DNA from: Chloroflexota bacterium
Lineage (GTDB): Bacteria; Chloroflexota; Chloroflexia; Chloroflexales; Roseiflexaceae
NCBI GenBank assembly: GCA_013388755.1
Contig: JACAEQ010000039.1
Location: forward strand, 1-53,226
DNA length: 53,226 nucleotides
Reading direction: 5' to 3'
Numbering within the stretch: position 1 is the first letter of the stretch; every line of letters starts with the position of its first letter. Position numbers and translations under genes: made by a program. Positions 330-25,348 of this stretch are shown piece by piece. The notes under the pieces were generated by a model. The model did no database searches. It was not told the origin of the DNA and worked only from the letters and a program-made list of their open reading frames with translations.

Positions 330-388
330 TACACTGTCTCATCACAGCCGAGCAATCACCACCTGCATGAAGCACGGTGAGGTCAACG

Positions 389-1438: not shown

Positions 1439-1612
1439 TGGTCATTGTTGCGCGAAGTTCTTCGGCTGCTTCTTCAGCAGGCACAGGGCGCGTTGTTGTA
1501 TCGAAAGGAGGCGACCCGACCACTACATACGCACGGTTCTGGTCGAACAGACGGACTCTCCATCCTACCGGCCCATCTGATGTGCAGTGATGCACCCGCG
1601 AGTGAGGCAACC

Positions 1613-3682: not shown

Positions 3683-3690
3683 GGGGGTCA

Positions 3691-3731
3691 GGGGTTGAAC
3701 GTTGCACGTCGAACGTTGAACGTTCAACCCC
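3691..3731. repeat. heptamer array forming a perfect intra-operon hairpin
   Basis: The spacer consists of seven-base units of the type TGAACGT. Its ends form a perfect 13-bp stem: GGGGTTGAACGTT (3691-3703) pairs with 3719-3731. There is no T tract. A stem here, between the binding-protein gene and the permease genes, would protect the upstream mRNA and help make more binding protein than membrane subunits. Confidence 0.65.
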
Positions 3732-3750
3732 ATACACTGAGAGAACCGCC

Positions 3751-4740: not shown

Positions 4741-4743
4741 GCC

Positions 4744-5907: not shown

Positions 5908-5950
5908 ACGTGGAGACGTGGGGACGTGGAACGTGGAACGTGGAACGAGG
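5908..5950 (+). repeat. ACGTGGA tandem array running into a ribosome binding site
   Basis: Directly after the TAA of the permease come ACGTGGAG, ACGTGGGG, then three exact ACGTGGA units (5924-5944) and ACGAGG. The last degenerate unit supplies the GAGG ribosome binding site for the ATG at 5956. Confidence 0.7.
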
Positions 5951-5955
5951 TTAGC

Positions 5956-7032
5956 ATGATCGACACGCGACCGCCGCTGATCGAGGTCGAAGATCTCAAA
6001 ACATATTTCTATCTTGATGAGGGTGTGGTACGCGCGGTGGATGGCGTGAGCTTCACCATCCGGCGTGGCCAGACGGTTGGCGTCGTGGGTGAGAGCGGTT
6101 GCGGGAAGTCGATCACTGCGCGCTCGATTATGCAGATCGTGCGCCCACCCGGCCGGATCGTCAGCGGATCGATCCGGCTGCACCGCGAACCTACCGCCGC
6201 AGACCGGCCAGGCGATGTGGTTGAGATCACCCGTATGGACCCGATGAGCAAGGAGATGCGGCTCATTCGCGGCGGCGAGATCTCGATGGTCTTCCAGGAA
6301 CCGATGACCTCGCTCAGCCCAGTACATACCGTCGGTAGCCAGATTATCGAGGCGATCACGCTGCATCAGCCGGTCAGCAGAGAAGATGCGCGCCGGTTGA
6401 CCATCGAGATTTTTTCAAAAGTAGGTATGCAGCAGCCGGCGCGAACCATCGATCGCTATCCACATCAGCTCTCCGGCGGTATGCGCCAGCGTGCCATGAT
6501 CGCAATGGCGCTGAGTTGCAACCCGAGCCTGTTGATCGCCGATGAACCTACCACCGCGCTCGATGTGACGACCGAAGCCCAGATTCTGCAGTTGATGCGC
6601 AATCTGCAGAAGGAACTGGGTATGGCCATTATGTTCATCACCCATAACCTGGGCGTTGTCGCCCAGATGACCGAAATCGTATTCGTGATGTACATGGGCC
6701 GCGTGGTGGAAACCGCGACCGTTGATGATCTCTTCTATGATCCAAAGCATCCCTATACGCGCCTGTTGCTGCGATCGATCCCGAAACTTGGCTCGAAAGC
6801 CGCCGGCACGGCGCCGCGACTCGAGTCGATCCGTGGAACGGTGCCGCACCCGTATGCCATCCCGAAGGGATGCCCGTTCCACCCACGCTGCGGCGATATG
6901 ATCCCCGGCGTCTGCGATGTGGTCGATCCACCACTGGTGAAGATTGGCGACAGCCAGGAAGTGCGCTGCCATCTCTACACCCCAGCAAATGCTCCAGGGT
7001 CTGGCGAGGTGATTCCGCTGACGACAACGTAG
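5956..7032 (+). CDS. oligopeptide/oligosaccharide ABC transporter ATP-binding protein (OppD/DppD type)
   Basis: The second ATPase of the importer, 358 residues. It has Walker [10 protein letters not shown], signature [15 protein letters not shown], Walker [13 protein letters not shown] and the C-terminal oligo_HPY motif [11 protein letters not shown] 5956 is preceded by GAGG at 5947-5950; an upstream GTG at 5926 lies in the repeat spacer and lacks a binding site. It would pair with the OppF-like ATPase at the head of the operon. Confidence 0.92.
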
Positions 7033-7102
7033 AGCGTTCAACCCGGGATTCTAAATTTTCTTTGTATTGATCAAAAAGAGTAAGGAACGAAAGGTTCTGG
7101 TT

Positions 7103-8878
7103 ATGAATGTCATGCTCCTGTTTCCCCCAAACTGGACCCCTTCGATGCCGCACCTTTCGTTACCCACACTTACTGCATTCTTGCGCGGGCATGGCGTTCA
7201 GGTGACGCAGCGTGATCTGAATATCGAGGTCTTCGACAGGGTATTGACCCGGCGCTACCTGGAAGGCGTGCTTGACCGCCTGCGGCGTGAGTACGGCTCG
7301 CGGGGCGATCGGCGGCCGGTGCGGCCGGTGACACCGCCACACGACAGCATCCTTCAGGCGTTGCGGGTCGGGCCGAAGGTTGCCGCGCGTGTCGAACGAG
7401 CCAAACAGACGATCAAGAGTGATGCATTCTTCGACGGGCCGATCGGCCTGGAGGCATTCGTCACGATCGTTGACGCGTTGCAGATCGCGTCGCTGCCCTT
7501 CTTTCCCGCGGCGCTCGAAATCGGTACCTATCGCCCCGCCAGGACCGCCGACAGTACCCAGAACATTTTGAGCGAAGTACGTGATCCGCAGTTCAATATG
7601 CTGATTGATATCTACCGGCGCACGGTGCTGGCCGACATCGAGCGCGAAAAGCCTGACGTGGTCGGGATTTCGATCCCGTCCATGGCGCAGATGGTGCCCG
7701 GGCTGACGCTGGCGGCGCTGATCAAGGACGCCGGGTTGCCCTGCCATGTGACGGTCGGCGGGCCGCATATCACCATGCTGCGCGAGCGGCTGGCACGATC
7801 CTCTGGCATATTCTCACTGATTGACAGCGCAGTGGTCTTCGATGGCGAGGTTCCGCTGTTGCAGTTGTGCCGGGCGCTCGAAGCTGGCGGTGACCTGTCG
7901 CAGGTACCGAACCTGATCTATCGCGATGGCGACGCGATCCGGGTCACGGCGCGGAAGGAGCCGGAAAAGATCGGCGCGTTACCGACACCCGATTTTGACG
8001 GGCTACCACTCGATCGCTACCTGGCGCCGCGCCTGACCCTGCCATTGATGACGGCGCGCGGTTGTTACTTTGGCAAATGCGCCTTCTGCAATGTCGGGTA
8101 TGGCGAGGCGGAGAACTTCAGCCTGATGCGCAGCGAGATGCTGGCCGGGCAAATGATCGCGCTGAAGAAGCGGTATGGCGCACAGCATATCTTCTTTGCC
8201 GACGAAGCGCTGACACCGCGCACCCTGCGCGAACTTTCGGCGATCATGCAGCGCGACGGCACCCCGGTGATGTGGGGTGGTTGTGCGCGGTTCGAGAAAC
8301 CAATCACCGGCGAACTGTTGCAACAGATGTACGATGGCGGTTGCCGCATGATCCTGTTCGGTCTCGAGAGCGCCTCCGAGGCAATTATGGATCGCATGGT
8401 CAAAGGGACGAAACTCGAGCACATGCACCGCATCCTGCGCGAAAGCAGCGATGCCGGTATCTGGAACCACACGTTTTTCTTCTTCGGCTTTCCCGGCGAA
8501 ACCCTTGATGATGCCCAGCAGACGGTCAACTTCCTCTACGAACATAAGTATCATATCCATTCAGCCGCGCTCGGCACCTTCCTGCTCGAAATCGACGCGC
8601 CGGCTCACCGTTTCCCAGAGAGCTTTGGCATCACAAAAGTGATTGACCCGCCGGAAAAGGACCTGGCGATCTATTTCGACTATGAAGTTGCTGCCGGCAT
8701 GGATGCCGCGATGGCGGAGCTGGTCGAATCGCGTTTCATGGATACGATGCCTGTCAAACCATATCCGCAGTTTTATGTCAATGACGTCTACCGCTTTCTC
8801 TATGCATGTCACCTGAGGGAGCAGGGAGTGCCGCCGCCGCCGCTCCTTGCTCTGCAGGAAACGAGTGTTCCCGGATGA
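7103..8878 (+). CDS. B12-binding-domain radical SAM protein
   Basis: A 591-residue cytoplasmic enzyme. The N-terminal half looks like a cobalamin-binding Rossmann domain (MLLFPPNWTPSMPHLSLP start; VVGISIPSMAQMVPG and TVGGPHI later), but I see no DxHxxG, so any cobalamin would bind base-off without that His ligand. The cluster motif is C321-x4-C326-x2-C329 (RGCYFGKCAFC), the spaced variant of some B12-radical SAM subfamilies, not the canonical CX3CX2C. FFFGFPGET is a typical later motif. The reaction is unknown. Its place between the importer and a GH4 enzyme suggests methylation, rearrangement or cleavage of an imported sugar or its aglycone. ATG 7103 follows an AAAGG; a TTG at 7067 is also in frame. 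Confidence 0.85.
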   Translation: MNVMLLFPPNWTPSMPHLSLPTLTAFLRGHGVQVTQRDLNIEVFDRVLTRRYLEGVLDRLRREYGSRGDRRPVRPVTPPHDSILQALRVGPKVAARVERAKQTIKSDAFFDGPIGLEAFVTIVDALQIASLPFFPAALEIGTYRPARTADSTQNILSEVRDPQFNMLIDIYRRTVLADIEREKPDVVGISIPSMAQMVPGLTLAALIKDAGLPCHVTVGGPHITMLRERLARSSGIFSLIDSAVVFDGEVPLLQLCRALEAGGDLSQVPNLIYRDGDAIRVTARKEPEKIGALPTPDFDGLPLDRYLAPRLTLPLMTARGCYFGKCAFCNVGYGEAENFSLMRSEMLAGQMIALKKRYGAQHIFFADEALTPRTLRELSAIMQRDGTPVMWGGCARFEKPITGELLQQMYDGGCRMILFGLESASEAIMDRMVKGTKLEHMHRILRESSDAGIWNHTFFFFGFPGETLDDAQQTVNFLYEHKYHIHSAALGTFLLEIDAPAHRFPESFGITKVIDPPEKDLAIYFDYEVAAGMDAAMAELVESRFMDTMPVKPYPQFYVNDVYRFLYACHLREQGVPPPPLLALQETSVPG

Positions 8879-8903: not shown

Positions 8904-8992
8904 GAATTGAGAATTGAGCATTGAGAATCTGAAACCTGGAACGCAGCACCAGGCACGCAGCACTCAGCACTCGGTACTCAGCACTCAGCACT
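8904..8992. repeat. two period-7 arrays (GAATTGA and CAGCACT units)
   Basis: Bases 8904-8932 are four GAATTGA-like units. Bases 8944-8992 are exactly seven seven-base units around CAGCACT. The complementary GAGTGCTGAG at 8881-8890 could fold onto several CAGCACT copies. The array ends just before AAGGAGG, the binding site of the next gene. Confidence 0.75.
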
Positions 8993-9012
8993 CAAGTCAA
9001 GGAGGCCTTCCC

Positions 9013-10371
9013 ATGCCCACCGCGATCAAGCTCAGTGTCATCGGCGCCGGAAGTGCGCAGTTCTCGCTCGGCCTGGTGAAAGATATCTGCCTGACACCTG
9101 GACTCGCGGGGAGTCTGGTGAGTTTCATGGATATTGACCGCGACCGGCTGGAGATGATCGAGAAGCTGGCACGGCGCTATGCTGCCGAGTTGGGCACCGA
9201 CCTGCGCTTTGAGCGCACCCTGGATCGCGCCGTTTCGCTCAGAGACGCCGATTTCGTGATCAATACCGGCTCGGTGACCAGCCACCACCATCAGCGCGCT
9301 ATGCGTGATCTGACGGCAAAGCACGGGTACTACTACGGCGGCGTCAATCTTGGCAGCCATGCGCAACTCGCCTTCATGCTGAGTGTCGCGCACGACATGG
9401 CGCGGATCTGTCCCGACGCCTGGCTCATACAATCGGGCAACCCGGTGTTCGAAGGCTGCACCCTGATGACCCGCGAAACCGGGATCAAGGTCTGCGGCCT
9501 GTGTCACGGCCACTATGGTGTCTACGAGATCGCCCTGACGCTCGGCCTCAACCCGCAGAAGATCACCTGGCAGGCGCCCGGGCTGAACCATAACATCTGG
9601 CTGACGCACTTCCTGTACGAAGGTCGTGATGCATACCCGCTGATTGACCAGTGGATCGCGGAGAAGGGCGAAGCCTACTGGCAGACTCATGTTGCCGAGC
9701 GTACCCACGACATTCAGATGTCGCGCGGTACGATTCATCAGTATCGAATGTACGGCCTGATGCCGATTGGCGATACGCCACGCCAGCAGCGCAACTGGTG
9801 GTATCACACCGATATCACCACGAAGAAGCGCTGGTTCGGCGAGCCATGGGGCGGCCCCGATACCGAACTGGCGCGACCTTTTTTCGTCGAGAACCTGGAG
9901 AAGCGGATCGCCGAGATGACACGCCTGGCGAATGATCCCGGGGCCAGTATGGTCGAGGCGTTCGGCAGTGAGAAAACGCGCGAGCAGCAGGTGCCAATCA
10001 TTGATGGTCTGGTCAATAACAATGAATACCAGGCGCAGGTGAACATCCCGAACAACGGCGCATTGCCCGGCGTCGCCGATGATGTGGTTGTCGAAGTACC
10101 GGCGATCGTCAATGTCAAAGGCATCCAGCCACTCCGCGTCCCGCCGTTGCCGAACAAGATCATGCTCGAAATGATCCTGCCCGAAGTGCTCGACATGGAA
10201 CGCGAACTGCTGGCGTTCAAAAGTGGTGATCGCTCGATGCTGCTGTGGAACGTGCTGAACAGCCCACAGACTCGCTCATATGACCAGGCGGTCGCAGTGC
10301 TCGATGAGTTGCTGGCCATGCCGGGCAATGAGGAACTGGCAGCGCGGTTCCAGTGGCCGAAGAACTGGTGA
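9013..10371 (+). CDS. NAD-dependent glycoside hydrolase family 4 protein, likely acting on alpha-uronides
   Basis: A 452-residue cytoplasmic enzyme. GH4 enzymes oxidise the C3 hydroxyl with NAD+, eliminate the aglycone and need Mn2+. Visible are the Rossmann start (VIGAGSAQF), SGNPV (N143-P144-V145), the metal-site CHG motif (C164-H165-G166) and GLNH with H193. The residues after the metal Cys separate GH4 subgroups; as I recall, CHG types are alpha-glucuronidases, while CHSV is seen in alpha-galactosidases and CHEV in alpha-galacturonidases. This points to an imported uronide. ATG 9013 has a perfect AAGGAGG at 8999-9005. Confidence 0.85.
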   Translation: MPTAIKLSVIGAGSAQFSLGLVKDICLTPGLAGSLVSFMDIDRDRLEMIEKLARRYAAELGTDLRFERTLDRAVSLRDADFVINTGSVTSHHHQRAMRDLTAKHGYYYGGVNLGSHAQLAFMLSVAHDMARICPDAWLIQSGNPVFEGCTLMTRETGIKVCGLCHGHYGVYEIALTLGLNPQKITWQAPGLNHNIWLTHFLYEGRDAYPLIDQWIAEKGEAYWQTHVAERTHDIQMSRGTIHQYRMYGLMPIGDTPRQQRNWWYHTDITTKKRWFGEPWGGPDTELARPFFVENLEKRIAEMTRLANDPGASMVEAFGSEKTREQQVPIIDGLVNNNEYQAQVNIPNNGALPGVADDVVVEVPAIVNVKGIQPLRVPPLPNKIMLEMILPEVLDMERELLAFKSGDRSMLLWNVLNSPQTRSYDQAVAVLDELLAMPGNEELAARFQWPKNW

Positions 10372-10373
10372 CA

Positions 10374-10411
10374 CGTTGCACGTACAACGTTGAACGTTCC
10401 CACGTGCAACG
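10374..10411. repeat. heptamer-derived hairpin between GH4 and PL22 genes
   Basis: CGTTGCACGT (10374-10383) pairs perfectly with 10402-10411. The spacer (10374-10425) again has a seven-base rhythm around ACGTTGA. There is no T run, so it is more likely an mRNA-processing or stabilising stem than a terminator. Confidence 0.6.
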
Positions 10412-10451
10412 TTCGACGTTTGACCCGTCACTGACAAAAAAGGAGTTCACT

Positions 10452-11642
10452 GTGATCGGCCAGACATGGCCTGCGGAAATAAGCGCGTTCACCGACGAGA
10501 AAACCGGACGGACAATCAAGAAGCTGACCGCAACCGGCAACAACGTCCATCTCTATTTTACTGAGAACTCGTTCGACTCGCGCGAGAACACGATTGTGTT
10601 CACATCGGATCGTGGCAGCGGCGAAGATCGCGCGCCACATGAAGATCCCTGCTATAACCTGTTCCGCATGGATCTCACCAGCGGAGAGATCACGCAACTG
10701 ACCGACGAACCCGGCGGGATCGGCAGCGTTACCAAAACGCCTGATAGCCGGATTGTGGTCTATATCACGGGCCGGCAGGTGCGCGCGCTCGATACCGCCA
10801 GCGGCGTGATCACAACCATCTATGAGGAAACCGGAGCATTCACGCCTGGCGCACCGTCGATCGCCGCCAACCGGCGTTATGTCGCCTTCTGCCGTAACGA
10901 GAAGGTCGACGTGCCGCGCGGGCCGAACTATGCCGGCTTCAAAGAGAGTTTCTACCGTATCAAAGACGGCCGGGTAACGGTCGCCTACCTTGATGGTACC
11001 GGTGCATTCGACGCCTGGCGCGATACCCACTGGCTCGGTCACTTTCAGTTCTGCCCCGATGATCCAACGATCGGCAGCTTCTGCCACGAGGGGCCATGGC
11101 ACCTGGTGACACAGCGCATCTGGTTGCTCGATTTTACGTCCCGCGCAGCGTTCCCCTGCTTCCGCCAGACGGAGCGCGACTCGGTCGGGCACGAGTTCTG
11201 GACGCAGAATGGGCTGATCTTCTTCGATAACCGCGGCCCCGGGCACGACGGGACGATCACCAGTAGTCGCACGCAGGCGGTGGCAACGGACGTTGCCGTG
11301 AAAGCGGCTCATGCTCCTGGCGACGAGGCGCCGTTCCGCCCGTACGTTGGCCTGGCCGACCGGCGTGGCTACGTCATCCGGCAGATTGATATGCCGTACT
11401 ACACCAATCACTACCACGCGAATCCTGATAACACTGTGCTTGTCGGTGATGACGTGGACGACCTGGTGCTGATCGACATCTCCGGCGACGAGGCCAGGCT
11501 GGAGCTTCTGGTGAGCGACCATGGCACTTCCTGGCATACCCAGAGCAGCCATTGCCATCCGACGTGGAGCTGGGACGGCAAACATATTCTGTATGCTTCA
11601 GATCGCGGCGGAAAGGTGAATCTGTATCTGGTGGAGCCTTAG
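10452..11642 (+). CDS. oligogalacturonate lyase-like (PL22) beta-propeller protein, copy 1
   Basis: A 396-residue protein related to the PL22 oligogalacturonide lyases, which cleave short uronate oligomers by Mn2+-assisted beta-elimination in the cytoplasm. Propeller-blade signatures include LDTASGVITTIYEE, and the family-typical end has the metal-ligand His in HCHPTWSWDGKHILYAS. A paralogue lies at 25367-26518. GTG 10452 has AAGGAG eight bases upstream. The protein stops right after NLYLVEP, where the paralogue has about ten more residues; the stop codon is shared with an inserted MITE, so the tail was probably trimmed. The family call is from motifs, not alignment. Confidence 0.75.
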   Translation: MIGQTWPAEISAFTDEKTGRTIKKLTATGNNVHLYFTENSFDSRENTIVFTSDRGSGEDRAPHEDPCYNLFRMDLTSGEITQLTDEPGGIGSVTKTPDSRIVVYITGRQVRALDTASGVITTIYEETGAFTPGAPSIAANRRYVAFCRNEKVDVPRGPNYAGFKESFYRIKDGRVTVAYLDGTGAFDAWRDTHWLGHFQFCPDDPTIGSFCHEGPWHLVTQRIWLLDFTSRAAFPCFRQTERDSVGHEFWTQNGLIFFDNRGPGHDGTITSSRTQAVATDVAVKAAHAPGDEAPFRPYVGLADRRGYVIRQIDMPYYTNHYHANPDNTVLVGDDVDDLVLIDISGDEARLELLVSDHGTSWHTQSSHCHPTWSWDGKHILYASDRGGKVNLYLVEP

Positions 11643-11887: not shown

Positions 11888-12640
11888 ATGACGGACAACA
11901 ACGCCATTCCCCCCTTCCCCGCCGCCATCGGCGTGACGCATCTGCGCGTGTATGACACGCTGGCGCCCGATGGCCTGGTTGGCGGCAGCCCGCATGTCCA
12001 TTTTCTCTGCACCGAGTTGTATATCGTGATCGGCGGATATGGCGCGGTGCAGACACTCAGCGCCGCCGGCTTCCGCGAGATTGCACTCGAACCGGGCCGG
12101 CTGGTGTGGTTCACGCCAGGAACGATTCACCGCCTGATCAACCATGGCCAGCTTGAATTGCAGATTGTGATGCAGAATGCCGGCCTGCCCGAAGCGGGCG
12201 ATTTCGTGCTGACGTTCCCTGAACCGTTGCTGGCCGACGGGTCCGCATACTTCGAGGCCGCATCGCTCTCACCGCGCGGCGAAGTCTATGCCAGCAGCGA
12301 ACGTGCCGCGATGCGCCGGCGCGATCTGGCGGTTGAGGGGTTCAATGAATTGCGGCGGCGCTATGACGAGGAAGGTCAGGTCGCACTCGACCGGTTCTAC
12401 GATCTTGCGGTACGGCTCATCCGGCCAAAACTCGATTCGTGGCGCAACGTCTGGGAACACGGCCCGCTGGCAGCGGCGCACGCGACGGGCACGCAACTGG
12501 CAGCGCTGGCGGCGGGTCATATCGGTCACCTGCAGCGCGGTGATGCCTATGTTCTGCCGGCGCCTGCCGCACCACGGCGTCTGGGCGTCTGCGGTACGCT
12601 GGGCGTCTATCTGCCGGAAGGGGCACTGCAACCGGCATAG
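11888..12640 (+). CDS. cupin-domain protein
   Basis: A 250-residue soluble protein. The N-terminal ~110 residues are a cupin barrel with metal ligands in HVHFLCTELY (H-x-H-x4-E) and the later TPGTIHRLIN. The C-terminal ~130 residues match nothing I recognise. In pectin and alginate pathways the small cupin KdgF linearises unsaturated uronates made by lyases such as PL22; the position after a PL22-like gene makes a similar role attractive but unproven. AAGGA lies eight bases before the ATG. The TTAACCC-rich spacer upstream shows no clear promoter. Confidence 0.75.
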   Translation: MTDNNAIPPFPAAIGVTHLRVYDTLAPDGLVGGSPHVHFLCTELYIVIGGYGAVQTLSAAGFREIALEPGRLVWFTPGTIHRLINHGQLELQIVMQNAGLPEAGDFVLTFPEPLLADGSAYFEAASLSPRGEVYASSERAAMRRRDLAVEGFNELRRRYDEEGQVALDRFYDLAVRLIRPKLDSWRNVWEHGPLAAAHATGTQLAALAAGHIGHLQRGDAYVLPAPAAPRRLGVCGTLGVYLPEGALQPA

Positions 12641-12724
12641 CCGGGAACAGGTGGCGCATGTTCGTAGGTCACATCCCTCACCATCGCTGTGCAGGGATGA
12701 TTGCTGAATGATGTGAGGAACCAG

Positions 12725-15349
12725 GTGCCTGTGCTGCAAACCACTGTCCATGCCGGCGACCCGCTCCGGCCCTGGCTGGCGCTGGGACCATTCTACGAGG
12801 ACCTGTCGGCACAGGTCGAAGGGCTGACGCTCTTTGAGCACGCCGGTGCAACCACAGGTGCGGCACAGATGGGGGCGATCGCTGCCGAGGCGCGCGCGCT
12901 GCTCGCGGCGCCGATCCATGAGGGCGCTGAAGCCATGTTTCGCGAGCAGCGCGCGCGCTGGTGGCTGGTGCGCCTGCCGGAACCGTACCTCTCGTGGGGC
13001 AACTACTACATCAGCAATCATCTGGGTGCGATCCTGCTGACGACGCTGGTTCGCCCTCTGAGCGCCGGTGCGCGACGCTGGCGCCTGGCGCAGAACATCA
13101 ATGCTCGCGCGATCATGACCCTCGATGGCGTGGTGGTCTTCGATACTGCCGATCAGGCGCCACACGTTGAGCACGGCATGCGCCTGTATGAGTTCGAAGC
13201 GCCACTCGCGCCGGGCGAACACGCGCTTGGCCTGGCGTTGTTACGTCTGGGGCGTATGGCGCAGGTCGGCGCGCGTCTGGAATTGCTCGATGGCGATCTT
13301 CAGGTACGCATGCCGTCTGGTTCGCAAGTGGATGAGGAGGAACGCGCGCGGATCGAGTCGCAGGTGGCGGCGCTGTCGCTGGGGCGCGATCTGTTCTATC
13401 CTGGCGATGATGTGGTCCTGCGTGTCGCTGCGCTGGCGGGCAACGCACCCACGACGCCTATGCGGGTAACACTGCTTGGCCCGGCGATACCGAAGGTGTA
13501 TGGCGACAAGCCGTATGACGCGACCGGCGGGCGCAACTATGGCGCAACGCCACGGATCATCGAGCCAGGGTTCTCCGGTGAGGTGGTGCTGGCGCGTGGC
13601 GCTGATCTGCCGGATAGCAACTATCGCATCGTCTGTTCCTGGCACGATGTCGCCGGAAACACCGTCACCAGCGTCTCATTCGAAGTGCGCAAGGTTACGC
13701 CAGCGCCGCTCGTTCCCGGCTATGAGCGCATGGCAGAGCGCCGCACCCGCGCGCTGGAGTTCTTCGCCCATACCCGCGAGTGGCATCCGTCGCCACCGAT
13801 CTGGAACCAGGTCGCGCGCTATGGGCTCCAACGCTACGCCGATGTCGAAGAGCATGTCATTGCCGCGACATGCGCATTTCTCGACGCCCGAAAAGATTGC
13901 TCCGACTTCGCCATCCAGGGCCTGTTGCGGCTGGCGGCATGGGAGTCGAAGGAGCAACACCTCAGTACGGCAATAAACGCGCTCATGAAGCAGACGATCC
14001 TTGGTTTCAAATACTGGGTGGATGAGCCGGGCGATACCGTCATGTACATGGGTTCGGAGAATCATCGCCTGCTGTTCCATGTTGCCGAGTGGATGGCCGG
14101 GCAACTCTACCCACTGGAGGAGTTCAGCAATAGCTTGCAGCGTGGCCTGTTCCATGCCCTGAAGGGCCGTACCTACATGACCGAGTGGATCAGGCAGCGC
14201 GGGCGGTATGGCTTCGACGAATGGCATTCCAATGCCTATTACCCGATCTGCATTGCACCATTGCTGAACATCTATGATTTTGCGATTGACGAAGAGTACA
14301 AACTGCGCCAGATGGCGGGCGCGCTCCTCGATGTCATGTTCTTCAACCTGGCAGCCGACGGGTTTCGCGGCGCCTTTGGCACGACCCACGGTCGCAGCTA
14401 TGGCATTTACTGCAAATACGCCGATTTTGATGATACCGCCTCGACCTGCTGGCAACTCTTCGGCACAGGCGCCATGGTTGACGGGCCGTTCGGCATCGCA
14501 GCCGTCTCGCTGGCCACCAGTACCTATCGCCTCCCGAAGATTATCTATGATATCGCCACCGACACCCGTTCGGTCGTCGAGTCGCGCCAGCGTGCAGGCG
14601 TGCTTCCCAACAGCGCGCCACACGCCGATTTCGTCGTCTTTCGCACCCCCGATTACACGATGTCGGCAGTGCAGGACCATCGCAAAGGCGAGTATGAAAG
14701 CTCGACGCACGTTGCGCAGATTACGCTGCCGAACAAAGCGGCGATTTTCTGGAGTTGCCCGCAGACCAGTGGCGAGGGATCGGGCTTGCGACCCGACTAC
14801 TGGTCGGGCAACACGACGCTGCCGCGCGCCATCCAGTATCGCAATGTGCTGGCGTTGTCGTATCGCCTGACGGATCTCGCGTGGATGACACACTGTTTCT
14901 TCGAGCAAGGCCGCTTCGACGAGGTGCGTTTTGCGGGCAACTGGGCCTTCGCGCGCGCCGAGCAGGCATACGTGGCAATCTTCTCGGAGCATGGCCTGCA
15001 TGTGGGCGATGTCGGCCAGTATGCCGGGCGCGAACTCGTCTGCTCGGCGCGCGCAAATACCTGGCTGGCGGAGTGCGGCCGCAAGGCTGATTGGGGTTCG
15101 TTTGACGCGTTTGTGACCGCCATCCTGGCTGCGCCGCTCCATACCGACGACAACATGGTGATGTATCAGTCGCCGTCGATCAGGCGCTTCGTCGCCGGGT
15201 GGGACATCACGCCAACCGTGAATGATGAGCCGATCCCATTACGCGGCTATCCGCTGGTCGATAGCCCATGGGCGCAATCGCGCTTTGGGTCGGGTGAGTT
15301 TGTTATTCGCCATGGCGGCGAGGAGTATGGGATCTGGTTGAATCAGTAG
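12725..15349 (+). CDS. large (alpha/alpha)-toroid-like protein, candidate glycan lyase or hydrolase, paralogue 1
   Basis: An 874-residue protein of no family I can name. Residues ~1-330 look like beta-sandwich modules (ALGPFYEDL; MTLDGVVVFDTAD). Residues ~340-600 are helical and resemble the incomplete toroid of polysaccharide lyases. Three motifs are shared with the next large gene: SENH (N446, H447), WHSNAYY (500-506) and TTHGRSY (553-559). Asn, His and Tyr from such positions are the catalytic set in several toroid lyases, so these are candidate active-site residues. There is no signal peptide. I chose GTG 12725 because TGAGGA precedes it; a TTG at 12701 is also in frame. Both paralogues come out at exactly 874 residues. 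Confidence 0.7.
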   Translation: MPVLQTTVHAGDPLRPWLALGPFYEDLSAQVEGLTLFEHAGATTGAAQMGAIAAEARALLAAPIHEGAEAMFREQRARWWLVRLPEPYLSWGNYYISNHLGAILLTTLVRPLSAGARRWRLAQNINARAIMTLDGVVVFDTADQAPHVEHGMRLYEFEAPLAPGEHALGLALLRLGRMAQVGARLELLDGDLQVRMPSGSQVDEEERARIESQVAALSLGRDLFYPGDDVVLRVAALAGNAPTTPMRVTLLGPAIPKVYGDKPYDATGGRNYGATPRIIEPGFSGEVVLARGADLPDSNYRIVCSWHDVAGNTVTSVSFEVRKVTPAPLVPGYERMAERRTRALEFFAHTREWHPSPPIWNQVARYGLQRYADVEEHVIAATCAFLDARKDCSDFAIQGLLRLAAWESKEQHLSTAINALMKQTILGFKYWVDEPGDTVMYMGSENHRLLFHVAEWMAGQLYPLEEFSNSLQRGLFHALKGRTYMTEWIRQRGRYGFDEWHSNAYYPICIAPLLNIYDFAIDEEYKLRQMAGALLDVMFFNLAADGFRGAFGTTHGRSYGIYCKYADFDDTASTCWQLFGTGAMVDGPFGIAAVSLATSTYRLPKIIYDIATDTRSVVESRQRAGVLPNSAPHADFVVFRTPDYTMSAVQDHRKGEYESSTHVAQITLPNKAAIFWSCPQTSGEGSGLRPDYWSGNTTLPRAIQYRNVLALSYRLTDLAWMTHCFFEQGRFDEVRFAGNWAFARAEQAYVAIFSEHGLHVGDVGQYAGRELVCSARANTWLAECGRKADWGSFDAFVTAILAAPLHTDDNMVMYQSPSIRRFVAGWDITPTVNDEPIPLRGYPLVDSPWAQSRFGSGEFVIRHGGEEYGIWLNQ

Positions 15350-15351
15350 GC

Positions 15352-15708
15352 GAGAGACCAGAGGTCTACAATTTTATCAATCGCGGCCCGCTCGTGATGG
15401 GATTGCTGACCGGCAAATGCAGCGCCGAAACGACCTTCGGCGCCGACGATGTGTGTCGTTCGTGGAACCTTCACGAAGGCGACCGCGCGGTGATGCTCAA
15501 CGCCTGGAGGCGCCGCGGCGTGCTGACCACAGGTGGCCGTACCCTGGCGCAGGGGGCGCTCGGCTGGCTCTGGGCGCGAAGCGGGGCTCCAATCCCAATC
15601 ACAGGTTTCAAAACTGTGGCGCAGGTCGAAGAGAATGCCGGCGCGCTGCAGTTCGGCCCATTGATGACAGAACAGATGCGGCAGATTGAAGCGATCACGC
15701 GCACCTGA
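15352..15708 (+). pseudogene. C-terminal fragment of an aldo/keto reductase
   Basis: The frame begins EVYNFINRGPLVMGLLTGK and continues through WNLHEGDRAVML to PIPITGFKTVAQVEENAGAL, all typical of the last third of aldo/keto reductases. The catalytic Tyr/Lys part is missing. The fragment starts within three bases of the preceding stop codon. I read it as a remnant left when genes were rearranged between the two 874-residue paralogues. An internal ATG at 15394 would give only 104 residues, too little for a functional barrel. Confidence 0.8.
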
Positions 15709-15747
15709 CGCCTATCGCCTGTCGCCTACTGAAATACGAAAAGGCCC

Positions 15748-18372
15748 ATGAACTACTTCGATTACCAGACTACTGGCGGGTACGTCCACAACTGGCTCGT
15801 CGCCGGCCCGCGCGTGCTGGAAGTGCCCGACCTCGAGCGCTTCTATGGTTACGACTTTCGCCTGCGTATCGCGCGCCACTACGACACCCGCGATCTGCAG
15901 ATTGGTGAGACTCCGGTCGAACGTGCCGGATTGACCATTGACGGCCAGGAGTTGTCGTGGCAGTACCACGCCTGCCGCGAGGACCATTTCGTGGACTTGA
16001 GCCACTTTTACCATGTGGTGAGCCATGTGCGCGCCTGGGCATATGCCGAGGTGGATGCGCCGGCCAGCGGTGCGCTCGCACTGACGCTGACCACCAACGG
16101 CCCGGCAGATGTCTGGGTTAATGGCCGTCACGTCCACCGCCACGAGCATTTCCATCATCAGGCGCCTGCCAGTGTGCCCTTTACCGCCGAGTTTCAGGAA
16201 GGGCCAAATGCCCTCCTGGTTCGTTTCGAACATGTGGCCGCGCGCGAGTGCCCACTGGTGATGGCACTGCGGATCGATGCTGCGGACACATGGCCGGTTC
16301 GCCTGCCAACCAACCAGGAACACCTGGAGTTGCGCGCGGCGTTGGAGCAACTGATCAATGCGGCGTTCCTGGAGCGGGATGTCTTCGATCGCCACGATGA
16401 GATCGTCGTCCGCTGGCCGGATGACCTGCTTACCGAGGCGCACACCATCTGCGTCCGGTTACAACGTGAGACGGGGCAGATCTCTGCTGAAGGCCTGCCG
16501 CTCATTCGAGCCGGAGCGTCACAATCGTTCGGGCGGGCGGCACAGTATGGCGATGGCAGTTACCATATTGTCCTGATGCCGCATCCCGAGACCTACTATC
16601 TGCACAATGTTCGTATTGTACGCAGCATTCCATTCACGATCCTGAAGAATCGTTATGCCACCGAACCATACGGCACCTACGAGTCGCGCCGCAGCGAGGC
16701 GCTGCTCGACGCAACGCAGCGGGGTGGTCTTTATGGTGAAATCGCCAGGATGGAGCTGGGATACTGGAACGATCTCAATCATGAGACGATCCTGCATGAA
16801 ATCAATGGCATCAATCGTCGCCGCGACTGCAGCGACTTCTACCTCGTCGGCTTGCTTGGCGCGCTGATGCGTTATGGCGCTGATGAGCGCTTCCCGGCCG
16901 ACCTGCGCGCACCACTTGAGGCATGCATTCTCGGTTTCCGCTACTGGAGCGATGATCCGGGTGCGGATGCCATGTGGTTCTGGTCGGAGAATCACCGTAT
17001 CCTGTTTCACACCTGTGAGATTCTGGCGGGCCAGCTTTATCCGGATCGCGTCTTCAGTACAAGTTCCATGTCGGGCGCAGAGCACCGCGCCCGCGGCGAG
17101 CGACTCGCGCTCGACTGGTTGCACCAGCGCGCCGCAGGCGGCTTCCGTGAGTGGGACTCGAATACGTATTTCGAGCATGATGCACTGGCGCTGGCGCATC
17201 TGGCCGATCTCGCAGCCAGTGACCAGGTGCGTGAACTTGCGGCAGTCGTTCTCGATAAATTGCTCTTCACCATGGCGATCAATTCGTTCCGCGGCGTCTT
17301 CGGTTCCACCCACGGGCGCGCCTATACTGTCGGGATCAAGGGTGCGCGCCGCGAACTGACCAGCGGCATGGGGCGGCTCCTCTGGGGGATGGGTGTCTAC
17401 AATGAGGCAACGCTGGGTACCGTGGCGCTGGCGTGCGCCCACGGCTACGAATTACCACCCGTCATTGCCGAGGTGGCGACGGCAACCGTCGAGGAACTGT
17501 GGAACCGCGAACGCCATGCCGGCACGAATGTGTGGGCGCTCGACATGGCCGAAGGGCCGTGGGAGGTCAACAAGGTCACCTATAAAACGCCCGATTATAT
17601 GCTCTGCTCGGCGCAAGACCACCACCCCGGCACGCGCGGCGTCCAGCAGCATATCTGGCAGGCGACCCTCTCGCACGACGCGGTTGTGTTCGCAACCCAC
17701 CCGCCGTGTGTGGCCGAAGATAGCTCGCATCGCCCGAATGCGTGGCATGGAAACGTGGTGCTGCCGCGGGTAGCACAGTGGCGCGAGGTGCTGGTGGCCG
17801 TTCACCATATCCCGCAACGCGACGACTGGTTCGATCGTGAACGACCCGACTTTCACCTCGATCCGAACCACCCGCAGACGTATGTCGATCCGTCATGGAT
17901 GGGGTTCACCCATGCGTACTTCCCTACCTTCGCATTTGATGAGTACATCCTTCGTGACGGCCGGGCCTTTGCCCGCGTTGCCGAGGGGTACCTGGCATTG
18001 ACGGCCGCCAATGGGCTCGAGCTTGTCACCTCGGGCACTAATGCATGGCGTGAACTGCGCTCGCCGGGCTGGCCGAATATCTGGCTGTGCATCATGGGGC
18101 GAACCGCGTGCGACGGTGACTTCGACACCTTCCAGGAACGGGTGCTGTCGCTCGAGGTGGTGTTCGACGGGCTGCATGCACGTTGCGAGACGCCGCGCGG
18201 TGAGCGACTGGCGTTTGGATGGGAAGGCCCGCTGACGATTGACGGCGAGGAGCAGCCGTTATCGCATTTCAAGCATTATGACAGCCCGATCTGTACCTGT
18301 GATCTGGGCGCGCCGACGATGGAAATCGCCGGCTGGGAGACGGTCCTGCGACTGGATTTTCACCGTGCGTGA
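15748..18372 (+). CDS. large (alpha/alpha)-toroid-like protein, candidate glycan lyase or hydrolase, paralogue 2
   Basis: An 874-residue protein homologous over its length to the one at 12725. The N-terminus has the same kind of beta-sandwich start (YVHNWLVAGPRVLEVPDLERFYG) and a lectin-like stretch (DVWVNGRHVHRHEHFHH). The helical domain repeats the three motifs: WSENH (N415, H416), WDSNTYF (469-475) and STHGRAY (H522). Later, KTPDYMLCSAQDHHPG matches RTPDYTMSAVQDHRKG in the paralogue. No signal peptide is visible, so it should act in the cytoplasm. AAAAGG precedes the ATG. Divergence outside the motifs suggests different substrates. Confidence 0.7.
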   Translation: MNYFDYQTTGGYVHNWLVAGPRVLEVPDLERFYGYDFRLRIARHYDTRDLQIGETPVERAGLTIDGQELSWQYHACREDHFVDLSHFYHVVSHVRAWAYAEVDAPASGALALTLTTNGPADVWVNGRHVHRHEHFHHQAPASVPFTAEFQEGPNALLVRFEHVAARECPLVMALRIDAADTWPVRLPTNQEHLELRAALEQLINAAFLERDVFDRHDEIVVRWPDDLLTEAHTICVRLQRETGQISAEGLPLIRAGASQSFGRAAQYGDGSYHIVLMPHPETYYLHNVRIVRSIPFTILKNRYATEPYGTYESRRSEALLDATQRGGLYGEIARMELGYWNDLNHETILHEINGINRRRDCSDFYLVGLLGALMRYGADERFPADLRAPLEACILGFRYWSDDPGADAMWFWSENHRILFHTCEILAGQLYPDRVFSTSSMSGAEHRARGERLALDWLHQRAAGGFREWDSNTYFEHDALALAHLADLAASDQVRELAAVVLDKLLFTMAINSFRGVFGSTHGRAYTVGIKGARRELTSGMGRLLWGMGVYNEATLGTVALACAHGYELPPVIAEVATATVEELWNRERHAGTNVWALDMAEGPWEVNKVTYKTPDYMLCSAQDHHPGTRGVQQHIWQATLSHDAVVFATHPPCVAEDSSHRPNAWHGNVVLPRVAQWREVLVAVHHIPQRDDWFDRERPDFHLDPNHPQTYVDPSWMGFTHAYFPTFAFDEYILRDGRAFARVAEGYLALTAANGLELVTSGTNAWRELRSPGWPNIWLCIMGRTACDGDFDTFQERVLSLEVVFDGLHARCETPRGERLAFGWEGPLTIDGEEQPLSHFKHYDSPICTCDLGAPTMEIAGWETVLRLDFHRA

Positions 18373-18406
18373 CCGGCCGGTGCGCGGTGCAGCGGTAGAG
18401 GATGGG

Positions 18407-20494: not shown

Positions 20495-20539
20495 ACGTCG
20501 AGTGCCGGTTTCATCCGGCATATGATGGGAGTTGCTTCC

Positions 20540-22741
20540 GTGAACACGCATCTACCATCCGGCACATCCGGCGAGCGACTGTTTGCCGCCGGCATTGCGA
20601 CCATGCGTGAGCGCTTCGATGAACGGGCCGGCCTGATCGAACAGCGGACCGATACAGGGGTCTACCACCCGATCCGCGAGTCGCTGGCCTTTGCGTATGC
20701 GCTGGTGCAGGCTGGCAGCACCGCGGCATTACCGCAGGCTGAACGGATCATGCGCCGCGCGCTACAGGCGCAGGAGCGTTCGCCCGGTCACATCCACCAC
20801 GGCGGATTCAAGTGGATGGATGAAGACCAGGGTGTAACCGATCTGAATGCGGTCCAGTTTGCGCTGGAACAGATCGTGCCCTTCCTGCTCGATTATGGCG
20901 ATCAAATCACGCCTGCGCTCCGCGCCGAACTTCTTGACGCCGTACGGATCGGCGCCGCTGAAATCGCTCGCCTTCATGTTGCAATCTGGTACACGAACAT
21001 CGCGTTGCTGGATATCCTCAACACCGTCCTGGCCGGCCGGGTTCTGGAGGATACCCGACTGCTGGCGCGAGGACGCCAGCGCATGGACGAGTGGATCGCC
21101 TTCACCAATGCGTCGGGGACCGTTCCTGAGTACAACAGCCCGACGTATGCAGCCGTTGATCTGGCGGCGCTGGCGGAACTGGCCCACCGCACGGATGACC
21201 CGGTTATTCGTGTGAAGGCGCAGGTAATGGAGGAACGACTCTGGATTCACACCGCGCTCCATTACCACCATCCGACGGCGCAACTCGCCGGCCCGCACAG
21301 CCGCGCCTACCATAACGACGTCACCGGCGGGATCTGTGGTATCAAACATACCCTGTTCCGCCACCTTGGCGATGAGCGCCTGATGCGTCGTTCGGCATAC
21401 GCAATCCAGCGCCAGAGCGAGGGAAGTGTGCGCGCCGGGCGTTGCCCGTACCATCTGCCACGCTATCTTGAGCGGTTGATGCGTGTGAAGCCGGATCGTT
21501 TCAGTATTGCCGAAACGGCCGTCGCCGCCATGGGAATGGACCTGATGACCTTCATGACGCCGGAATACGCGCTCGGCACGGCATCGGTCCATAACAATGC
21601 TCAAAACGATCGGCTGATCCTCTACTACCGTGCGCCTGAACCACGCCAGGTCGGGGTCCTCTTCTCACGTTACATCGTGAATGAGAAGTCGTTCGGCAGC
21701 CATTATCACGCCACCGATCGTTCGACGGCCAATAATCTGAACGAGGAAGGGATGTTCTGGGGCCTTCAGCACGAAAACAAAAGTATCGCGCTGTACGCTC
21801 TCGAACCGCAGCATGAACCGGTCCACAGTCTAAAAACCGAAGTCTACGTGCTGGATGCGCCGGCTCTTGGAGCGATATGGGTCAACGAGACGCGGGTCAC
21901 GCTCAGCACCACGCCGCGCCGGCTGCGCCCACACGATGTGCTCCTGATCGCCGACGGCACCACCTATGTCGCACTCCGCCCGCTTGAACCGTCGAACCTG
22001 GGCAATGACGCGCCCATTCTGCTCTACGAGCGCGCCGGGGAGCTGGTGTTGTCAATCTACAACTACTATCAAGGCGAACCAAAACGGTTCTGGGAGTATG
22101 CAAGCCTGGATGGGCCATTCTATCATGGCAATATCCGCGCCGGCTTCATCATTGAAGTTGGCGACCAGGCAGAGTATGGCGATGTCGAAGCATTCCACGC
22201 CCATGTCATGCGCGGCGTGATCGCCGATCGGATCGAGGGGTCACGGCGCACGGTTCGCTATGCCAGCGGTGCCGATCTGCTGGAACTCACGGTTGACCTG
22301 CGGGCAAATCGCCTGGTGGAGCGACGTGTCAATGGCCTCACCTATCATCCGCCAATGCTCGCGTCACCGGTGGCGGTTCAGGCAATAACAGGAGCGCTGG
22401 CAGCCGGCGCGGCGCGCCTGTTGTGCGGAACCATTCCCGCATGGCTGGTGGCGGATGATGACGGCGGCGCCTGGGCGGCGGCCAATCCATCCGACGATGA
22501 AGTGACCTGGCGTTTCGAGACGCCCCTGACAACCCTGGAGTCACCGGCGTTCGGGTTCGGCAGGATGGCCGTGTACGCCGGTGATACGGTCGAGATTGAT
22601 GTGCTGGCAGTTCACCGGCCTGCGCCGCTGCGGATCACCTGTGACGCCGCACCGCGTGTGATCTGGAACGGCGACGATGTCAGCGCGGCGTGCGTGTTCG
22701 ACCTTCGTAGCGGGACATATATCCTGCCAGCGCAGCCATAA
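20540..22741 (+). CDS. large toroid-like protein with EYNSPTY and AGPHSR motifs, paralogue 1
   Basis: A 733-residue soluble protein I cannot assign. The first ~350 residues are helical and contain YTNIA (151-155), EYNSPTY (197-203) and AGPHSRAY (250-257), all shared with the protein at 26707. The second half is beta-rich. Conserved Asn, Tyr, His and Arg in such a fold suit a carbohydrate lyase or hydrolase, but no substrate can be read from sequence. GTG 20540 has GGGAG eight bases upstream and is my choice; ATG 20522 is in frame but lacks a binding site. There is no signal peptide. Confidence 0.65.
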   Translation: MNTHLPSGTSGERLFAAGIATMRERFDERAGLIEQRTDTGVYHPIRESLAFAYALVQAGSTAALPQAERIMRRALQAQERSPGHIHHGGFKWMDEDQGVTDLNAVQFALEQIVPFLLDYGDQITPALRAELLDAVRIGAAEIARLHVAIWYTNIALLDILNTVLAGRVLEDTRLLARGRQRMDEWIAFTNASGTVPEYNSPTYAAVDLAALAELAHRTDDPVIRVKAQVMEERLWIHTALHYHHPTAQLAGPHSRAYHNDVTGGICGIKHTLFRHLGDERLMRRSAYAIQRQSEGSVRAGRCPYHLPRYLERLMRVKPDRFSIAETAVAAMGMDLMTFMTPEYALGTASVHNNAQNDRLILYYRAPEPRQVGVLFSRYIVNEKSFGSHYHATDRSTANNLNEEGMFWGLQHENKSIALYALEPQHEPVHSLKTEVYVLDAPALGAIWVNETRVTLSTTPRRLRPHDVLLIADGTTYVALRPLEPSNLGNDAPILLYERAGELVLSIYNYYQGEPKRFWEYASLDGPFYHGNIRAGFIIEVGDQAEYGDVEAFHAHVMRGVIADRIEGSRRTVRYASGADLLELTVDLRANRLVERRVNGLTYHPPMLASPVAVQAITGALAAGAARLLCGTIPAWLVADDDGGAWAAANPSDDEVTWRFETPLTTLESPAFGFGRMAVYAGDTVEIDVLAVHRPAPLRITCDAAPRVIWNGDDVSAACVFDLRSGTYILPAQP

Positions 22742-23155: not shown

Positions 23156-24181
23156 ATGCCGCACACGATTCGCTTTGCAGCCATTGGCCTGAACCATGGC
23201 CATATTTATGGGCAGACACATCTATTGTTGCGCGCCGGAGCGGAACTTGTCTCGTTCTATGCCGCCGAACCGGAGCTTGCCGTACAGTATGCCCGCACCT
23301 TTCCGCAGGCGATCCAGGTTGCCGATCCGCGCATCATTCTGGAGGATCCAGCGATCCACCTGGTGATCAGTGCGGCCATCCCCGATGAACGCGCGCCGCT
23401 AGGGATTGCCGTGATGCGCCATGGCAAAGATTATATGGCCGATAAGCCCGGCTTCACCACGCTGGCGCAACTCGAAGAGGCGCGGCGCGTCCAGGCCGAA
23501 ACCGGTCGCATCTATTCGATCTGTTTCAGCGAGCGTTTTGAGAATGCCGCAACGGTGCGCGCCGGTGAACTGGTGCAGGCCGGCGCCATTGGTACGGTTG
23601 TGCAGACGATCGGGCTTGGTCCGCACCGCACCAGTCTGATGTCACGTCCTGCCTGGTTCTTCCAGCGCAGCCGCTATGGCGGCATTCTGAACGATATCGC
23701 CTCGCACCAGGCCGACCAGTTTCTCTTTTTCACCGGCGCGACACGGGCCGAAGTCGTCACGGCGCAGACCGCGAACTACAAACATCCGCAGTACCCTGAA
23801 TTCGAAGACTTCGGCGACTGCCTGTTGCGCGGCACAACACCGCAAGGGCTGCAAACCTCGGGGTATATTCGTGTTGACTGGTACACGCCGGATGGTCTCG
23901 GCTCCTGGGGTGACGGGCGCCTGACCATCCTGGGCACCGAGGGGTATATCGAGATTCGCAAGAATATTGACATTGCGGGCCGGCCAGGCGGTAACCATCT
24001 CTTCCTGGTCGATCACAAGGGAACACAGTATATCGATTGCAGTGACGTAGCGCTACCCTATGGGCCGACCCTGGTATACGACATTCTGAATCGCACCGAA
24101 ACGGCGATGCCCCAGGCGCATTGCTTCCTGGCATCCGAACTGGTGCTGCGCGCTCAGGAAGTCGCCTGTCGGTTGACGTAG
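23156..24181 (+). CDS. Gfo/Idh/MocA family oxidoreductase, copy 1
   Basis: A 341-residue NAD(P)-dependent dehydrogenase-like protein. The N-terminal Rossmann domain begins IRFAAIGLNHGHIYGQTHLL, where GLNHGH replaces the common GxGxxG, as in a subset of the family. DKPGF stands at the position of the usual EKP motif with the active-site Lys. HQADQF lies in the C-terminal domain. AAGGAG precedes the ATG. Family members oxidise or epimerise sugars and uronates, which fits the locus; the substrate is unknown. Confidence 0.85.
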   Translation: MPHTIRFAAIGLNHGHIYGQTHLLLRAGAELVSFYAAEPELAVQYARTFPQAIQVADPRIILEDPAIHLVISAAIPDERAPLGIAVMRHGKDYMADKPGFTTLAQLEEARRVQAETGRIYSICFSERFENAATVRAGELVQAGAIGTVVQTIGLGPHRTSLMSRPAWFFQRSRYGGILNDIASHQADQFLFFTGATRAEVVTAQTANYKHPQYPEFEDFGDCLLRGTTPQGLQTSGYIRVDWYTPDGLGSWGDGRLTILGTEGYIEIRKNIDIAGRPGGNHLFLVDHKGTQYIDCSDVALPYGPTLVYDILNRTETAMPQAHCFLASELVLRAQEVACRLT

Positions 24182-24280
24182 GCGGGGTGCTGGCGCTGGT
24201 CGCTTTACCGTTGCGATCAGCGCCAGACATGAGAAGGTGCGCCGGCTTGCTGCTCACACAACGAAGGAAAGGATCCAGCA

Positions 24281-25348
24281 GTGCCCAGACCCCTCAACGT
24301 CGCCATTGTTGGCTGCGGTATCGGCAATGCGCATGCGCAGGCATATCAAACGCTTCCCGATCACTTCAGGCTCATCGCGGTCTGCGATATCGACGTGCCG
24401 AAGGCACGCCAGTTCGCCACAGCCTATGCGATTCCACGTGTCGTCAGCGACCTGGCCGAACTCTGCGCTATGGACGATCTTGATGTTATTGATATCTGCA
24501 CGCCGCCGAACCTGCATTTTGCGCAGGTGGAGCAGGTGCTTGCCGCCGGGAAACATGCCTTCTGCGAAAAACCCCTGGTAGCGTCGCTCCAGCATGCCGA
24601 CACCTTGATCGCCGCTGAAACCGCGTCGGGCCGGCGGGTCATGCCGATCTTTCAGTATCGCTTCGGCCACGGGCTGCAAAAACTCAAACTGCTCGTGGAA
24701 AACGGCGCCGCCGGTCGCGCGTATCTCACGACCGTCGAAACCGCCTGGCGGCGGCGTGCCGCCTATTATGACGTGCCCTGGCGCGGAAAATGGGCCACGG
24801 AGCTTGGCGGCGCGCTGCTCGGCCACGCCATTCACGCCCATGATATGCTGACGTACGTGCTCGGCCCGATCCGTAGCGTCTTCTGCCGCGCCGCCACGCT
24901 GGTCAACCCGATCGAGGTCGAAGATACCGCCGCCGTGGCGCTGGAGATGGCCGACGGATCACTGGCGACCCTGGCGGTCACACTCGGTTCAGCGACCGAA
25001 ATCACGCGCCACCGCTTCTGTTTCAGCAATATGGTCGCCGAAAGCAATACCCGACCCTACAGCAATTCCGGCGAGCCATGGATCTTCACCGGCGACACGC
25101 CTGAGGCTTCGGAACGGATTGCCGCACTTCTGGAAGGTTTTGTCCCATTGCCGGAAGGATATGCCGGGCAGTTCATCCGTTTCCACCAGGCCATCCATGG
25201 CGGCGGCGAATTGCCGGTGACTCTGGCCGACGCGCGCGCCTCGCTCGAGCTTGTCACCGCGCTGTATGCCTCGCAGCGCCGCGGCCAACCGGCAGCGCTG
25301 CCGATCACTGCGGATCATCCGATGTATGCCAGCTGGTTGCCTCAATAA
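24281..25348 (+). CDS. Gfo/Idh/MocA family oxidoreductase, copy 2
   Basis: A 355-residue protein with a canonical start, NVAIVGCGIGNAHAQAYQ (GxGxxxA), the nucleotide-binding stretch ICTPPNLH, and CEKPL with the family Lys. HAIHAHD supplies His residues in the C-terminal domain. The start is a GTG at 24281 with AAGGA upstream. It differs clearly from copy 1, so the two probably act on different intermediates. The 99 bases between the copies show nothing notable. Confidence 0.88.
   Translation: MPRPLNVAIVGCGIGNAHAQAYQTLPDHFRLIAVCDIDVPKARQFATAYAIPRVVSDLAELCAMDDLDVIDICTPPNLHFAQVEQVLAAGKHAFCEKPLVASLQHADTLIAAETASGRRVMPIFQYRFGHGLQKLKLLVENGAAGRAYLTTVETAWRRRAAYYDVPWRGKWATELGGALLGHAIHAHDMLTYVLGPIRSVFCRAATLVNPIEVEDTAAVALEMADGSLATLAVTLGSATEITRHRFCFSNMVAESNTRPYSNSGEPWIFTGDTPEASERIAALLEGFVPLPEGYAGQFIRFHQAIHGGGELPVTLADARASLELVTALYASQRRGQPAALPITADHPMYASWLPQ

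Follow-up and report, generated by a model that had tools for sequence, protein, structure and literature searches.

What do two neighbouring genes of a Chloroflexota bacterium encode, when both of the 874-residue products carry a SENH, a W-x-SN-x-Y and a THGR motif? In the window, by which we mean the whole 53,226-nucleotide stretch of DNA that was analysed, the genes for protein A (12725..15349) and protein B (15748..18372) lie, like the other window features whose limits are joined by two dots below, on the + strand, and a reading of the sequence alone, hereafter the original prediction, had proposed a possible new lyase family. This proposal is supported by the predicted fold, by conserved residues and their concerted loss, and by the operon context of relatives, and we consider it likely that A and B represent an unclassified family of lyases which act in the cytoplasm and cut imported uronate-containing oligosaccharides by beta-elimination.

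Results

A and B are paralogues that share four motifs

The two open reading frames of 874 residues were claimed to be paralogous, and a BLASTP identity of 31% over 704 residues (E 8e-83) bears this out as a resemblance that is not due to chance. Since A has an alternative TTG start at 12701, 24 bases upstream, which would yield 882 residues, the equal lengths of the two proteins are partly an effect of start choice. Querying the window's genome with A returned A and B as the only matches. The three motifs are found in both proteins exactly where they had been reported: SENH at S444-E-N446-H447 of A (14054..14065) and at residues 413-416 of B (N415/H416; 16984..16995), EWHSNAY at residues 499-505 of A (E499-W500-x-S502-N503-x-Y505; 14219..14239) and EWDSNTY at 468-474 of B (W469 to Y474; 17149..17169), and THGR at T554-H555-G556-R557 of A (14384..14395) and 521-524 of B (17308..17319). 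A fourth common motif, RxDCSDF, had been overlooked; it is RKDCSDF in A (389-395; 13889..13909) and RRDCSDF in B (358-364; 16819..16839). Strong divergence of the pair outside the motifs, as originally described, applies mainly to the N-terminal 200 residues and not to the C-terminal half, which is well conserved beyond the motifs, for example at QDHxxG, H662, W693 and LPR701.

In a tree of 94 members, A falls into a clade of nine and B into a separate clade of 65, both with full support, and A-clade and B-clade genes are retained together in several genomes. This pattern fits the suggestion that A and B may act on different linkages.

The family is widespread and falls outside the families compared

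A scan of GTDB contigs identified at least 153 genome stretches that encode relatives, 80 loci of which were read. Relatives occur mostly in Chloroflexota (Caldilineaceae, Anaerolineae), with others in Actinomycetota, Bacillota, Spirochaetota, Bacteroidota and Planctomycetota. In addition, at least 199 plasmid records carry a homologue, most of them from rhizobia and 123 from Rhizobium itself, and one homologue resides in the archaeon Haladaptatus, on a plasmid (L122) where genes for numerous Gfo/Idh dehydrogenases surround it and one of the heparinase II/III family is close by. Where public plasmid records showed an annotation, homologues were named "hypothetical protein"; the remainder were not annotated.

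The statement that the pair could not be placed in a known family proved correct for the comparison with Pfam, NCBIfam and PDB. Neither A nor B had a real match in Pfam or NCBIfam or a significant match among PDB sequences, and a search of 30 diverse members against Pfam (E 0.1) and NCBIfam gave no family match, the single GH88 match stemming from an included neighbouring gene. The apparent GH88 "fusion" at L091 was likewise rejected: the GH88 domain belongs to a distinct adjacent gene, whose product has a sandwich domain at its N-terminus, and is not joined to the toroid. In the same set of A, B and the 30 members there was no Pfam match to the models of the heparinase II/III superfamily (PL12, 15, 17, 21; PF16889, PF07940) at E 0.1 and no sequence match to those of PL8 (PF08124, PF02278). 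A profile of 72 members compared with PDB sequences retrieved only an unrelated 119-residue chain (E 0.71), and thus revealed no sequence relationship to PL33, PL35, PL39, PL40 or other PL families with solved structures. An hhalign comparison with Hepar_II_III proteins aligned only 22 columns at E 0.21 and placed ENH on NNH. S-ribosylhomocysteine lyase was considered as an identity for A and rejected, being below the cut-off (NCBIfam E 0.03; PDB 0.6).

The model of B is a toroid with a C-terminal beta-sandwich

An AlphaFold2 model of B, built with 72 relatives (pLDDT 93.9, pTM 0.93), starts with a GH2-like jelly roll, continues with an alpha/alpha toroid and ends in an antiparallel beta-sandwich. 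Residues 1-180 match the jelly roll with which GH2 beta-glucuronidases bind sugars, and the toroid and sandwich together extend from about residue 311 onwards. Structure prediction and a fold search had been proposed as a check, and both came out in favour of a toroid joined to a beta-sandwich. For the catalytic half, toroid lyases gave the best matches: first PL12 heparinase III (5jmd; Z 12.6, 399 residues, rmsd 7.4) and then PL8 chondroitinase AC (1cb8; Z 11.6, 406 residues, rmsd 5.4), with further heparinase III entries and an alginate lyase of PL8 ranking below them. Z values of 11-12 are modest for a helical toroid, which counts against the lyase reading, and the top rows of a plain Foldseek search with B came from the GH2-like N-terminal domain and not from the toroid. 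PL33, PL35, PL39 and PL40 were not among the fold matches listed for B, which we do not count as an exclusion. In B, every second toroid helix begins with one of the four motifs (362, 414, 474 and about 527); as the N-termini of these helices lie at the same end of the barrel in this fold, all four motifs would, by topology, be located at one end and face one cleft.

Asn446, His447 and Tyr505 behave as a putative catalytic group

In toroid lyases, an Asn or His is followed by a Tyr 52-57 residues on (PL12, 15, 17, 21, 33, 35, 39), and most of these families have a sandwich His 130-166 residues after the Tyr (PMC12088678; PMC11848413). In A, 58-59 residues lead from Asn446/His447 to the predicted catalytic Tyr505, a spacing close to that of the known enzymes, and a further 157 lead to His662 (14708..14710) in the beta-sandwich, the candidate beta-domain His.

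H447, Y505 and H555 are all present in 74 of 88 members, and the 14 that lack at least one of them were defined as degenerate by these three positions only. N446, the residues of RxDCSDF, Y559, N503 and E499 played no part in this definition, and the invariant positions most often lost in the degenerate set also include N446, D391, C392, D394, F395, Y559, N503 and E499; most beta-domain positions are retained. Ten of the degenerate members form one clade in which the fold is kept and N446, H447 and Y505 are gone. N446 and Y505 were lost separately from this clade in L066 and L070, and a tandem copy at L026 lacks Y505 alone. Joint loss at three places in the tree, with loss of Y505 alone at a fourth, points to N446 and Y505 as likely partners. 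A sign test for joint residue loss was dropped, as there are too few independent events.

The ten-member clade consists of B-type Chloroflexota proteins (L067, L072, L073, L074, L075, L076, L083, L085, L089, L092). Their RxDCSDF motif is degraded too, including the loss of D391, several of the genes still lie beside Opp genes, and two of them occur in the single genome of Anaerolinea thermolimosa. Members of this clade are possible pseudo-enzymes. Outside it, one protein (G002:C183, at L006) has SEHH for SENH, so that the Asn is not absolutely conserved there either.

H662 is missing from the Phyllobacterium, Shinella and Pseudosulfitobacter members despite their intact ENH and Tyr, and is retained in degenerate members; its spacing would fit the beta-domain His of PL12/15/17/33/35/39, but its conservation pattern is not that expected of a catalytic residue. 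The His of THGR (H555) is replaced by Gln in proteobacterial members and by Phe in Paenibacillus, and THGR is therefore no strict catalytic signature. As this His is not universal, the putative trio of Asn, His and Tyr in the toroid is better written as Asn446, His447 and Tyr505 plus Arg557.

The cluster encodes two further paralogues, C and D

Two distant paralogues within the same cluster had escaped notice: protein C (739 residues; 20522..22741) and its paralogue D (553 residues; 26707..28368, in a reading frame that opens at 26518), which is 28% identical to C. The YTNI, EYNSPTY and PHSR motifs of C and D align with SENH, EWxSNxY and THGR of A and B, the C/D group is homologous to A/B by hhalign (probability 97.2, E 3e-11, 220 columns), and the A/B HMM matches C at E 1e-7. 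C keeps the Asn and the Tyr and has Ile where A has His447. B-type and C-type genes also lie side by side in L007 and L045. The structure model of C is poor (pLDDT 60.9) and its fold matches are counted as supporting only; toroid lyases (PL39, PL8, PL12, PL15, PL17) make up most of the leading Foldseek rows, which also include dermatan sulfate epimerase. We predict that C and D share the fold of A and B and carry a second version of the active site, in which TNI replaces ENH.

Importer, glycosidase and PL22-type genes surround A and B

The window's cluster includes an SBP5/OppB/OppC/OppD/OppF ABC importer (377..7032), and in Chloroflexota SBP5-OppBCD importer genes lie beside the B-type gene in about 50 of 75 loci. 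The importer is followed by a B12-binding radical SAM protein (7067..8878), found in 17 homologous loci, where it accompanies the importer and a B-type gene; its nearest relatives are PhpK-type methyltransferases, at scores far below the cut-off. Next come a GH4 glycosidase (8914..10371), for which we found nothing in the literature on GH4 motifs that would fix its substrate specificity, a PL22-type oligogalacturonate-lyase propeller (10353..11642; PF14583, E 3e-19) and, adjoining A, a cupin-domain protein (11888..12640) that is also present in L014 and that might, as a guess, open rings in the manner of KdgF. Between B and C (18239-20494) lies a fusion of a thioredoxin-like domain with an NHL beta-propeller. 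Beyond C lie two Gfo/Idh/MocA dehydrogenases (23156..25348), and a second PL22-type propeller (25367..26518; PF14583, E 2e-43).

Elsewhere in the window's genome, kduD immediately follows a gene of the KduI/IolB family. The latter scores as IolB and not as KduI, and we therefore took it as evidence only in combination with the clear KduD next to it. GH88 is absent from this genome. Co-occurrence of the family with KduI over 400 Chloroflexota genomes allowed no conclusion, because too few genomes carry the family and PF04962 includes IolB.

Homologues elsewhere occur beside GH105, GH88 and kdu genes

Phyllobacterium and Shinella have a row of genes for GH105, kduI, the homologue, a sugar ABC importer and kduD, and Pseudosulfitobacter has GH88/105, a TRAP importer, kduD, kduI and the homologue. 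The homologue is accompanied by GH105, GH28 and an ABC importer in Rhizobium, and is directly followed by a gene with a GH88 domain in Pseudonocardia and in a Clostridia MAG. The KduI and KduD assignments exceed the NCBI cut-offs; the Phyllobacterium protein annotated as GH88 is a GH105 going by its PDB relatives, and the GH105 relatives of the operons carry the NCBIfam name "beta-galactosidase BglB". KduI and KduD act on 5-dehydro-4-deoxyglucuronate, which derives from the unsaturated uronates made by lyases (PMC12838403). This pathway depends on the product of a lyase, and the annotations of the Phyllobacterium, Shinella and Pseudosulfitobacter operon stretches include none besides the homologue, so that the context points to beta-elimination. 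We regard gene context as the strongest argument for the lyase reading.

On plasmid pRL12 of R. johnstonii 3841, a genetically tractable rhizobium, the family gene RL_RS36345 (L120:9713-12235) lies within a GH105-GH28-ABC importer cluster; a Rhizobium rhizosphere transcriptome paper yielded no named entry for this locus. In Anaerocolumna (L086:1800-3815) a GH67 alpha-glucuronidase is encoded near the family gene, hinting at glucuronoxylan-type substrates there.

Discussion

From these observations we infer a reaction and a part for each residue. Oligosaccharides, presumably of pectin or glucuronate type, would enter through the neighbouring Opp-type importer and be cut in the cytoplasm, a setting suggested by the lack of an apparent signal peptide at the N-terminus of A or B. 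The chain would lie across the end of the alpha/alpha toroid, opposite the C-terminal beta-sandwich, probably held with help from the GH2-like N-terminal domain. Asn446 (415 in B), probably with Arg557, would neutralise the uronate carboxylate, and Tyr505 (474 in B) and His447 (416 in B) would form the acid/base pair that takes the proton off C5 and protonates the leaving O4. The product would carry a delta-4,5-unsaturated uronate and could open to 5-dehydro-4-deoxyglucuronate for KduI- and KduD-type enzymes, with trimming by GH105 where present. Besides the modest Z values and the Foldseek ranking of B, several observations speak against this reading: profiles reach no known lyase family, H662 is distributed in a way that does not follow the other active-site residues, the window's genome has an IolB-like gene in place of a clear KduI and has no GH88, and the GH105 relatives bear the BglB name.

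The rival hardest to exclude by context is an oligosaccharide dehydratase, which would likewise remove the C5 proton and expel water, instead of a sugar, from C4 of a terminal uronate. Ulvan degradation involves an enzyme of this kind, which feeds GH105 (PMC8511951), and its unsaturated product would serve GH105 and KduI just as well, making the operon context equally compatible. We nevertheless think this reading very unlikely, because the known enzyme remains active when its Tyr is changed to Phe and depends on Asp and Lys (PMC8511951), whereas here Asn and Tyr are lost most consistently in the degenerate set. A uronate C5-epimerase, in which the toroid site would take and return the C5 proton and leave the chain intact, is suggested by human dermatan sulfate epimerase 1, which shares the overall fold and ranks third among the Foldseek rows for C; yet the KduI and KduD enzymes encoded in the operons of Phyllobacterium, Shinella and Pseudosulfitobacter depend on a 4-deoxy product that no other annotated lyase there would supply, and we give an epimerase only a slight chance. 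Equally slight is the chance of a hydrolase or phosphorylase whose motifs merely bind substrate: glycosidases and sugar epimerases account for many of the alpha/alpha toroid enzymes, and several of them are matched by the low-confidence model of C, but the best full-domain matches of the good B model are lyases, and the conserved Asn/His and Tyr are as expected for toroid lyases. Both epimerase and hydrolase fit the context less well than lyase or dehydratase.

A different doubt concerns novelty, as a family of true lyases might already be numbered in CAZy without having a Pfam model or a solved structure. CAZy counts 44 PL families (PMC12088678), which leaves room for this; the failure to match Pfam, NCBIfam or PDB sequences, together with the label "hypothetical protein" in public plasmid records, makes it unlikely in our view. 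Most likely, A and B belong to an unclassified family of a known kind, the toroid lyases, set apart by the Pfam, NCBIfam and PDB comparison and distinguished by an extra GH2-like domain and a putatively inactive branch. More tentatively, and with greater doubt than belief, we suggest that A, B, C and D form a single, unclassified superfamily of toroid lyases whose active site exists in an ENH and a TNI version. Acting jointly within the cell, they would take apart one branched acidic glycan, and the superfamily would also comprise a Chloroflexota branch of inactive pseudo-lyases, passed on by inheritance and retained beside importer genes for binding or regulation.

If A and B are lyases, they supply the missing step of several GH105/KduI/KduD operons, acidic-sugar use becomes predictable in rhizobia, Chloroflexota and others, and the toroid lyases gain an unclassified family with natural inactive relatives for the study of catalysis.

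Among known systems, PL12 heparinase III (BT4657, HepC), the top structural match for B, shares the toroid and antiparallel beta-sandwich and has an Asn followed by a Tyr 54 residues on (PMC12088678), compared with 58-59 in A and B. It differs in having no sequence-level match to A and B, which add the N-terminal GH2-like domain and a toroid Arg/His motif and some of whose relatives lack the beta-domain His. PL8 chondroitinase AC has the same toroid-sandwich fold with Asn, His and Tyr in the toroid (PMC12088678), but its His is near the Tyr, whereas that of A and B adjoins the Asn, and again there is no sequence match. PL15 exoHep and PL39 Dp0100 resemble the SENH...Y arrangement in their adjacent Asn-His and a Tyr 52-54 residues on (PMC12088678), but these show no sequence match either, and we did not find RxDCSDF described for PL15 or PL39. 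Finally, PL22 oligogalacturonate lyase, encoded in the same cluster as A and B, shares with them the predicted role of a cytoplasmic oligouronide lyase but is a beta-propeller of unrelated fold.
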